From Phenylobacterium sp. (GTDB lineage Bacteria > Pseudomonadota > Alphaproteobacteria > Caulobacterales > Caulobacteraceae): 60,095 nucleotides of DNA. Position 1 is the stretch's first letter. Each line of letters opens with the position of its first letter. The notes beneath the pieces were generated by a model. That model worked only from the letters and a program-made list of their open reading frames with translations. It did not search any database and had not been told where the DNA came from. The DNA is taken from the NCBI RefSeq assembly GCF_013911965.1, contig NZ_JACESE010000021.1, forward strand, positions 1 to 60,095, written 5' to 3'. Made by a program: the position numbers and the translations under genes. Below, piece by piece: positions 35,524-49,692 of the stretch.

Positions 35524-36495
35524 TCAGCCGCAGGGAAAGCTCAGCCGCACCACGCCGCCCTCGCCCCTGGGGAATTCCAGGCGGCCGCCGAGCTGGGCGG
35601 CCAGGCTGCGCATGATGCCGAAGCCGAGGCTCCTGGCCCCCGGCGAGGCGGGTTCGCCCGGAAAGCCCGGCCCGTCGTCGCGCACCTCGAGAACGGCGTC
35701 GGCTTCGCCCGCAGCCTGTTCGAGGGTGACGACGATCCTGCCGCCGTCGCGCCCCTTGAACGCGTGCTTGAGGGCGTTGGTGACCACCTCCGCGACCAGC
35801 AGCGACAGGGTGACCAGACGCGTGGTGTCGATCTGCACGTCCTGCGCCCGAACCTCCCAGACCACGTCCTTCGCGCCGACGGCGTGCACCAGGTCCTCGC
35901 AGAGGGCGGAGAGGCAGTCCCCCAGGCTCATCTCCATGGCCTGCGGATCGTAGAGGCGCCGGTGGACCTGGGACATGGTGATCAGCCGGTCATGCGCCTC
36001 GTCCAGCGCCTGGACCGCTTCGGGCGTCGCGCCATGGCGCTTCAGCTGCAGGAGCGAGGCGACGAAGGTCATGTTGTTGGCGACGCGGTGCTGCAGTTCC
36101 TGGAACATCACGCGCTGCTGGTCATAGAGCCGGGCGGTCAGCTCCTGTTCGGCCTGCAGCTTGGCCATCGCCCGCCGCATCACCTCGATCAGGGCGATGT
36201 CGACGCCGACCACGAAGGCGTAAAAGATCAAGGTCACGGCGCCGGCGCCGGTGATCGCGAACCCGGCCGGCGGAATGAAGAACCACCACGCCGCCAGGCC
36301 GGACAGGACGGCGCAGACGATGCCTGGCCACAGTCCGGCGACGAATGCGGTGACGATCACCGCCGGAAAAAAGGTCAGGTAGGGAAAGCCCGGCGGCAGC
36401 AGGTCGTCCGTCGCGAAGCGCACATAGAGCGCCACCGTTGCGGTCACGATCGCCAGGCCGTAGCCCAGGAGCAGGTTCCGCTCGAATAGACGCAT
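35524..36495 (-). CDS. Membrane sensor histidine kinase, HWE/HisKA_2 type
   Basis: 323 residues. Four membrane helices (residues 7-105) of the DUF4118/KdpD-like kind with almost no periplasmic loops, then the phosphorylation segment FQELQHRVANNM (His near 136) of the HisKA_2/HWE class and an ATPase domain with EVVTNALKHAF, VRDDGPGF and GFGIMRSL. Such kinases in alphaproteobacteria often feed response regulators, including the PhyR general stress branch. No response-regulator gene adjoins it, so it is an orphan kinase; the signal is unknown. Confidence 0.88.
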   Translation of the reverse strand: MRLFERNLLLGYGLAIVTATVALYVRFATDDLLPPGFPYLTFFPAVIVTAFVAGLWPGIVCAVLSGLAAWWFFIPPAGFAITGAGAVTLIFYAFVVGVDIALIEVMRRAMAKLQAEQELTARLYDQQRVMFQELQHRVANNMTFVASLLQLKRHGATPEAVQALDEAHDRLITMSQVHRRLYDPQAMEMSLGDCLSALCEDLVHAVGAKDVVWEVRAQDVQIDTTRLVTLSLLVAEVVTNALKHAFKGRDGGRIVVTLEQAAGEADAVLEVRDDGPGFPGEPASPGARSLGFGIMRSLAAQLGGRLEFPRGEGGVVRLSFPCG

Positions 36496-36689: not shown

Positions 36690-36695
36690 ATCGCG

Positions 36696-36711
36696 TTAAG
36701 GGACGCTTAAC
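36696..36711 (+). promoter_or_regulatory. Perfect CtrA-binding box
   Basis: TTAAGGGACGCTTAAC is an exact match to the alphaproteobacterial CtrA consensus TTAA-N7-TTAAC. In CtrA-activated promoters the downstream half overlaps the -35 element. Transcription to the right would begin about 30-35 bases later, leading straight into the small-RNA candidate; no protein gene follows on the plus strand before the terminator. Confidence 0.75.
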
Positions 36712-36737
36712 CATAACCGCCGACCCTCATCACGTCT

Positions 36738-36799
36738 TCCTTGAAGACACCCCACCATCACCGACCTTCTCAAGCCCGGCTTCGGCCGGGCTCTTTTTT
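36738..36799 (+). ncRNA. Candidate CtrA-controlled small RNA
   Basis: About 60 bases between the CtrA box and a strong intrinsic terminator, with no open frame. It contains an imperfect stem (TTGAAG with CTTCTCAA) closing a C-rich loop, CACCCCACCATCACC, and ends in the AGCCCGGC-TTCG-GCCGGGCT hairpin plus T6. C-rich unpaired loops in alphaproteobacterial sRNAs pair with G-rich ribosome binding sites. The architecture recalls the CtrA-activated RNA CcnA of Caulobacter, but I cannot establish homology. The 5' end is a guess from promoter spacing. Confidence 0.45.
36773..36799 (+). terminator. Strong intrinsic terminator with no annotated gene upstream
   Basis: Perfect 8-bp stem AGCCCGGC/GCCGGGCT (36773-36780 with 36785-36792), stable TTCG tetraloop, then CTTTTTT. 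It is oriented for plus-strand transcription, although the only upstream protein gene is on the minus strand. It therefore ends the small-RNA candidate. Confidence 0.88.
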
Positions 36800-36889
36800 C
36801 GCCCCCGGCGCCGGGGGCTGTGGAAAGCCGGGAACGGAGGGTTGCGTTGGGGGCGAGGCCAGCGTATACGCGCCGCCCTACGGTGCTGA

Positions 36890-36965
36890 TCCCCGATAGC
36901 TCAGTTGGTAGAGCAGTCGGCTGTTAACCGACTTGTCGCAGGTTCGAGTCCTGCTCGGGGAGCCA
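36890..36965 (+). tRNA. tRNA-Asn(GTT)
   Basis: 76 bases including an encoded CCA. Acceptor stem TCCCCGA/TCGGGGA, discriminator G, D-arm AGCTCAGTTGGTAGAGC, anticodon stem GTCGG/CCGAC with loop CTGTTAA (anticodon GTT) and T-arm GCAGGTTCGAGTCCTGC. All four stems pair. No integrase or duplicated 3' end lies downstream. Confidence 0.97.
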
Positions 36966-49384: not shown

Positions 49385-49458
49385 GCATCCAAACACTTGT
49401 TTAAGCGCGCGCCTCGGGCATAAGCTTCGGCCGTCGCCGGGCCGTTCCGGCGATCTGC

Positions 49459-49606
49459 GTTCTCAGGGCGGGGTGAAACTCCCCACCGGCGGTAATGCCC
49501 GGCTTCCGCCGGGACGAGCCCGCGGGCGCCTGGGGCCTTGCGGCTCCAGGGACGAGCAGACCCGGTGCGATCCCGGGGCCGACGGTCATAGTCCGGTTAT
49601 GAGAAC
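49459..49606 (+). promoter_or_regulatory. FMN riboswitch (RFN element)
   Basis: All conserved RFN blocks are present: P1 arm GTTCTCA (49459), GGGCGGGGTGAAACTCCCCACCGGCGGTAA split over 49466-49495, GAGCCCGCGGGCGCCT (about 49516), GACGAGCAGACCCGGTG (about 49551), GGGGCCGACGGTCATAGTCCGG and the closing TGAGAAC (49600). It binds FMN and represses the downstream gene. The 86 bases up to the ATG form small hairpins (GCGGA/TCCGC and GGTTT/AAACC) without a T tract, which favours translational control. A TCGCCGG hairpin sits just upstream (49434-49453). Confidence 0.96.
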
Positions 49607-49692
49607 CGCTGGCGCACGGGCGGAGTCTGAGTCCGCGTGAGCGCTGGCGATCCCCTGAGTCGTGGTTTTCGAAACCCGCCCAGGGAAAGACC

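Follow-up and report, generated by a model that had tools for sequence, protein, structure and literature searches.

The window, by which is meant the whole stretch of 60,095 bases that was analysed, carries on its plus strand, between a histidine-kinase-like gene (35524-36495, minus strand) and a tRNA-Asn gene (gtt; 36890-36965, plus strand), a CtrA box, a weak -10-like element and the sequence of a predicted short RNA ending in an intrinsic terminator, to which the tRNA-Asn gene is the conserved 3' neighbour. On the right side lie an aldo/keto-reductase-like and a lactoylglutathione-lyase-like gene, both on the minus strand; these, like the kinase-like gene to the left of the box, fall below their NCBIfam cutoffs and are named here by resemblance. 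Elsewhere in the window (49455-49610) there is an FMN riboswitch (RF00050, 78.2 bits against a cutoff of 66.2).

The CtrA box and the putative promoter

In the Alphaproteobacteria the cell cycle is under the master control of CtrA, and a gene for this regulator is present in the same genome (L341:1063-1758; NF045991, 412.5 bits against a cutoff of 350). The perfect TTAA-N7-TTAAC site described in the initial annotation is indeed found, as the full site TTAAGGGACGCTTAAC at 36696-36711 on the plus strand, i.e. at -38 to -23 relative to the inferred transcript start, and it is the sole TTAA-N7-TTAA of the window, where 0.01 would be expected and where one of 100 shuffles contained the motif. Over the whole genome the longer form TTAA-N7-TTAACC gives five matches, corresponding to four sites because two of the matches are a single palindrome read on both strands. 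A box that overlaps the -35 region is in an activating position for CtrA. Further downstream, the weak -10-like element GACCCT (36722-36727, plus strand) may, to judge by its spacing, serve as the -10 element proper; its A and its last T are conserved, in 0.89 and 0.73 respectively of 110 distinct loci among the matches listed. CtrA has been followed by ChIP-seq in a stalked budding bacterium, which we take to be Hyphomonas neptunium. The motif obtained there is TTAA-N7-TTAAC (PMC7200025).

The predicted RNA

Behind the promoter, an sRNA of about 66 nt, for which we infer both ends, would run from 36734 to 36799 on the plus strand. It comprises, as folded, a 5' hairpin GTCTTC-CTT-GAAGAC of 6 bp with a 3-base loop (36734-36748), an unpaired C-rich core ACCCCACCATCACC (36749-36762), which in alignments is the most conserved stretch of the RNA and which may act as a pairing stretch, and an intrinsic terminator (36773-36799), the stem of which (36773-36792) has eight pairs, seven of them G-C, closing a TTCG loop and followed by CTTTTTT. 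Such a build, with a C-rich stretch left exposed between a hairpin and a terminator, is usual for trans-acting sRNAs. The segment 36735-36800 folds at -20.1 kcal/mol (z = -3.94). The very strong same-strand terminator that had been claimed to follow the box is thus present, and in a scan of 14 kb it was the strongest of four found, a number showing no excess over the 4.7 expected. The stem that had been thought to close a C-rich loop is a different matter, since the CCCC lies instead in the unpaired linker 3' of the 6-bp hairpin; many relatives have CCC rather than CCCC in this core. The absence of any open frame between box and terminator, also claimed, holds in the sense that no conserved start codon was seen in the alignments of relatives, but a mechanical reading does give one TTG-start ORF of 52 aa (36741-36899), which passes straight through the terminator into the tRNA.

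Family membership

The RNA is a new member of a known family, CC0196. The Rfam model RF01519 ('Caulobacter sRNA CC0196') matches 36738-36795 with 37.5 bits, above its gathering cutoff of 35, and since this cutoff is passed the earlier suggestion that the RNA might be of a new kind has to be given up. All 58 model positions are matched, with a score that lies near the cutoff, the best copies reaching 95 bits. In the window's genome there is one match at E 0.001 and a second, weaker one if E up to 0.01 is allowed. Models of our own (R1, built from 49 sequences, and R2, covering the first 42 nt) score the window copy at 77.8 and 49.9 bits, the relatives used for training having included the window copy itself. 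The 5' hairpin is absent from the RF01519 model but present in the window copy. Rfam matches below cutoff, among them SorX, mmgR and miRNAs, were left aside.

Among 299 genomes of the window's family, RF01519 matched 217 at E ≤ 0.01, a count that mixes in weak matches and in which several genomes have two or three, and 122 above its cutoff. A tRNA-Asn gene adjoins the RNA in 29 of the 30 best-scoring relatives fetched with this model, the same place as that of the window copy.

CC0196 is said to originate in Landt et al. 2008, the abstract of which reportedly states that one cell-cycle sRNA appears to be controlled by CtrA; this may or may not be CC0196. With the proviso that the 2008 paper may link one sRNA to CtrA, a literature search found no paper coupling a CtrA box to the CC0196 RNA across the order and beyond, nor any on the function of the CC0196 / CCNA_R0004 RNA. 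What is added here is the constancy of the box, both in its 7-base spacing and in its distance from the hairpin, a range extending beyond the order, and a few compensatory changes in the hairpin.

Conservation of the box and the RNA

In the first 31 loci compared, window copy included, the box, the hairpin, the CCACCATCAC core and the terminator stand out as fixed islands. A search pattern consisting of one half-box, the start of the hairpin and the core matched at least 118 loci, among them loci from named Caulobacter, Phenylobacterium, Brevundimonas, Hyphomonas and Henriciella; four (L064, L089, L100 and L106) were judged by inspection to be chance matches. With these removed, 98 of 114 pattern loci among the matches listed are followed on the same strand, at no more than 1.5 kb, by a tRNA-Asn gene, which in 93 cases lies within 200 bases, while of the other 16 some are cut by a contig end and two (L032 and L125) have tRNA-Asn on the opposite strand. 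In L002-L008, L010-L013, L015, L024 and L025 two tandem tRNA-Asn genes follow the sRNA, where the window has one.

The other half of the box was not part of the pattern, and among the matches listed TTHR occurs at a gap of 7 in 108 of 110 distinct loci, against at most 9 of 110 at any other gap from 0 to 25. More telling are loci retrieved with models that ask for no box at all, namely 30 near ones found by RF01519 and 33 distant ones by R1 (leaving out L177, a chance match, L185, placed at a wrong offset, and L195, which was unanchored). A pair of half-sites drawn from TTAA, TTTA and TTAG at spacing 7 is present in 28/30 and 33/33 of these respectively, i.e. in 61 of the 63 together, as compared with at most 11/30 and 5/33 for any other spacing between 2 and 13; the strict TTAA-N7-TTAA is found in 18/30 and 22/33. 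Several of the close relatives that score highest with RF01519 have TTAG as their first half-site. The position is equally constant, the box ending 23-26 bases 5' of the hairpin in 60 of the 61 box-bearing loci. These 63 loci are not independent draws, because the sequences are related and because R1 was trained partly on box-bearing loci, but nothing in the case for linking box and RNA weighs more, in our view, than this spacing in loci fetched without reference to a box. The layout originally read as that of an RNA under CtrA control therefore stands as far as the arrangement goes, in that a free-standing, terminator-ended RNA does lie behind a CtrA box and the unit is conserved in relatives; binding of CtrA there is a prediction.

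Structural counts were made on 134 distinct RNAs, all chosen to have a T run (outside them fell L068, cut by a contig end, L076 and L111, with no reachable T run of 4, and also L173 and L195). At least five of the six hairpin pairs can form in 131 of the 134, and a terminator-like stem, for which the T run had been preselected, is present in every one, with 60 different 5' arms. The start of the 5' arm of the hairpin varies little, having been part of the search pattern, and most of the changes seen are one-sided (A-U to G-U). Two-sided changes do occur in diverged copies, as ATCTTC/GAAGAT (L373, L380), GTCTC/GAGAC (L357) and GTCTCC/GGGGAC (L359). RNAalifold, applied to alignment A1, also reports pairs with both sides changed, in an alignment where the 5' arm is partly misaligned, and a parsing of stems found one in 187 of 188 cases, which is no independent test since the best stem was picked within a limited space. 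The covariation that had been suggested as a check is thus real but modest, the two-sided changes being few and seen in diverged copies and the RNAalifold 5' arm being partly misaligned.

Proposed function and alternatives

The reading that we consider probable is that the locus is an sRNA gene of the CC0196 family, activated by CtrA, whose C-rich stretch pairs with G-rich translation starts of mRNAs. Phosphorylated CtrA would bind the full box over the -35 region and activate transcription from about 36734; transcription would end at about 36799, ahead of tRNA-Asn, giving an RNA of about 66 nt with a hairpin at each end and the C-rich stretch exposed, and this stretch would pair in trans with G-rich translation-start regions, so that the pairing would carry CtrA's timing to translation. 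With box, spacing and core fixed while the surroundings change, the RNA would be among the more stable outputs of CtrA.

Targets were sought in 40 genomes of the window's family as perfect matches to the 11-base complement GTGATGGTGGG, a search in which the sRNA gene usually accounts for one match in each genome. Among 100 listed other sites and the frames neighbouring them, no conserved start-site target, meaning one in which at least three loci share a start, was seen in the first 25 clusters. The largest cluster (nine loci, reading GGVMVG, presumably TsaD-like) was rejected, its site being within the coding sequence and some 200 bases or more downstream of the probable starts; a cluster of two loci (L241, L249) has possible starts at the site. 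The predicted pairing with the leader of ctrA, a duplex of -19.1 kcal/mol, is no better than that with mononucleotide shuffles of the leader, which gave a mean of -20.5 (sd 3.2) and of which 64% of 500 were as good.

The lack of a conserved mRNA target in this 11-mer search, together with a core that is nearly invariant across families, would also suit a sponge or a protein-binding RNA, in which the C-rich stretch would engage not mRNAs but a second sRNA or an RNA-binding protein. C. crescentus is known to have one sponge sRNA in CrfA (PMC12559287). No partner was identified for the present RNA, and we regard this explanation as improbable on balance.

Further evidence comes from C. crescentus, where the ortholog, i.e. 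CC0196 itself, is probably CCNA_R0004: it shares its strand with its neighbours CCNA_00197 and CCNA_00196 (PMC6237742, Table 1), which agrees both with the designation CC0196 and with L004, where the neighbours are likewise on the same strand. The window RNA is a small and concrete candidate for cell-cycle control at the level of RNA, and a model organism has its probable ortholog. For CCNA_R0004 a TSS has been mapped at 210,993, and Table 1 of PMC5988900 labels it 'Cell cycle regulated'; it is listed as having its own promoter ('own promoter: yes'; PMC6237742, Table 1). Few TSS reads were recorded for it through the cycle (5.5, 3.9, 8.0, 4.8, 12.8, 2.2, 3.7 and 4.2; PMC5988900), no phase is given, and the CtrA sites counted are 0 full and 1 half (PMC5988900, Tables 1 and 3); the annotated length is 133 nt, the RNA rises 3.7-fold after mitomycin C (PMC6237742, Table 1), and it is absent from the 18 Hfq-bound sRNAs of PMC11005374, Table 1. 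Taken together, these points weaken the simple picture of a CtrA-timed 66-nt RNA in C. crescentus.

The rise after mitomycin C speaks for another reading, in which CtrA represses the RNA, which would then be made when CtrA is absent or under stress, and the position of the box does not by itself fix the sign of the effect. Against this, C. crescentus genes with full boxes are described as having expression that mirrored CtrA (PMC4287350). Repression appears unlikely, to about the same degree as binding to an sRNA or protein partner.

It could further be supposed that box and RNA are the promoter and attenuated leader of the tRNA-Asn gene, with CtrA timing the supply of the tRNA and the terminator setting the read-through. 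Such an arrangement would account for the co-directional tRNA-Asn gene that follows in most of the loci looked at, and for an annotated C. crescentus RNA that, at 133 nt, exceeds the terminator-ended one. However, box and core are kept where tRNA-Asn is some 0.55-0.7 kb away (L182, L183) or 1.2 kb away (four loci), where it is on the other strand (L032, L125), and where, on long contigs, it was not found within 1.5 kb (e.g. L035, L060, L102 and L119); nor would a leader need a near-invariant C-rich core. This explanation is rather less probable than the two preceding ones. Finally, that a stray box should merely happen to lie beside a terminator, as a terminator scan without excess in the region might allow, is barely credible when 0.01 such boxes are expected per window and when it is contradicted by the spacing kept in 61 of the 63 loci fetched by models without a box.

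Comparison with known systems

Like the window RNA, CcnA (CCNA_R0094) of C. crescentus is an intergenic RNA behind CtrA boxes, and a kinship between the two had been raised. This receives no support, CcnA starting at 182 in the origin as against 210,993 for CCNA_R0004 (PMC5988900, Table 1; PMC4287350), a comparison of position and not of sequence. The CcnA transcript arises inside the origin and measures 182 nt (PMC4287350), whereas the predicted window RNA is of 66 nt and precedes tRNA-Asn. The CCCC of CcnA, said to pair with GGGG in the leaders of ctrA and gcrA (PMC8959179; PMC5988900, Table 3), is placed in a loop in PMC8959179, while the C-rich stretch of the window RNA is a linker.

In build there is a parallel with the alpha-R8 sRNAs (SisA-D; MmgR, RF00519), which likewise have a weak 5' hairpin, an unpaired pyrimidine-rich stretch and a terminator (PMC12559287). 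Membership of that family was rejected, as its core UUUCCUCCCU is absent from the window RNA and RF00519 gives 18.1 bits against a cutoff of 41; sisA, moreover, adjoins an FGase gene (PMC12559287), whereas the window RNA adjoins tRNA-Asn.

Taxonomic range

Within the order, R1 matched 180 of 249 genomes, the matches falling in families f1-f4 with none in f5, and tRNA-Asn was in the fetched stretch for all 20 of the matches taken from f3 and f4. Across the class it matched 18 of 289 genomes, 14 of them outside the order; one of these (L177, f17, G640) is a chance match, and the other 13 span six families (f8, f9, f95, f120, f127 and f141). All 13 have tRNA-Asn downstream and nine have a tRNA-Cys gene upstream in the same direction; L185 (= L225) is a real copy outside the order. 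With R2, 19 genomes out of 385 from the class gave a match, in a sample that overlaps widely with the former one; 17 were kept (three from within the order, 14 from the six families just named) and two, L223 at 31.6 bits and L224 at 24 bits, were judged to be chance. Over 249 genomes of the phylum there were, besides four of the order, nine matches at E ≤ 0.01, scoring at most 23.3 bits, and no tRNA was found in the locus of the six of these that were inspected. Rfam at its own cutoffs, applied to 16 distant loci (12 of them outside the order), returned tRNAs and one TPP riboswitch but no sRNA, so that the Rfam family in its curated form is drawn too narrowly.

Absence of a match need not mean absence of the RNA. 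In 14 of 19 genomes of the order that R1 did not match, a diverged copy, with box, hairpin and C-rich core, lies upstream of tRNA-Asn; three from the window's family (G111, G122 and G139) have no copy within 1.4 kb upstream of tRNA-Asn, and for G310 and G318 no tRNA-Asn was fetched. The same upstream look recovered the known positive G020. In a control of 24 class genomes, most from families without the RNA, tRNA-Asn was found in 20, with neither box plus core nor CCCACCAT upstream in any of them; the place upstream of tRNA-Asn is there empty rather than merely missed by the model.

As judged from these sequences, then, the arrangement of box and RNA ahead of tRNA-Asn is shared by other families of the order and by six that lie beyond it. 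We lean, by a small degree, towards regarding it as an ancient CtrA-driven sRNA that predates the Caulobacterales, often flanked by tRNA-Cys and tRNA-Asn. It would then be a conserved branch of the CtrA cell-cycle system that acts post-transcriptionally, recorded hitherto only as one uncharacterised sRNA of Caulobacter.

Some observations on individual copies may be added. In those from f5 (L355, L358, L362, L364 and L375) the core is followed by a conserved stretch CACGA-AGTGAGTA and then by a stem without a long T run, and the 3' end of the RNA may be made differently there. Three MAG contigs labelled Bordetella, Acidobacteria and Opitutaceae (L070, L084 and L111, respectively) carry a box and sRNA of Caulobacterales type and are probably misbinned. 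In IMG/VR, two of the 11 contigs that contain a 16-base piece of the RNA (L347 and L349) have box, RNA and tRNA-Asn, and represent either host sequence flanking a prophage or host DNA taken for viral.
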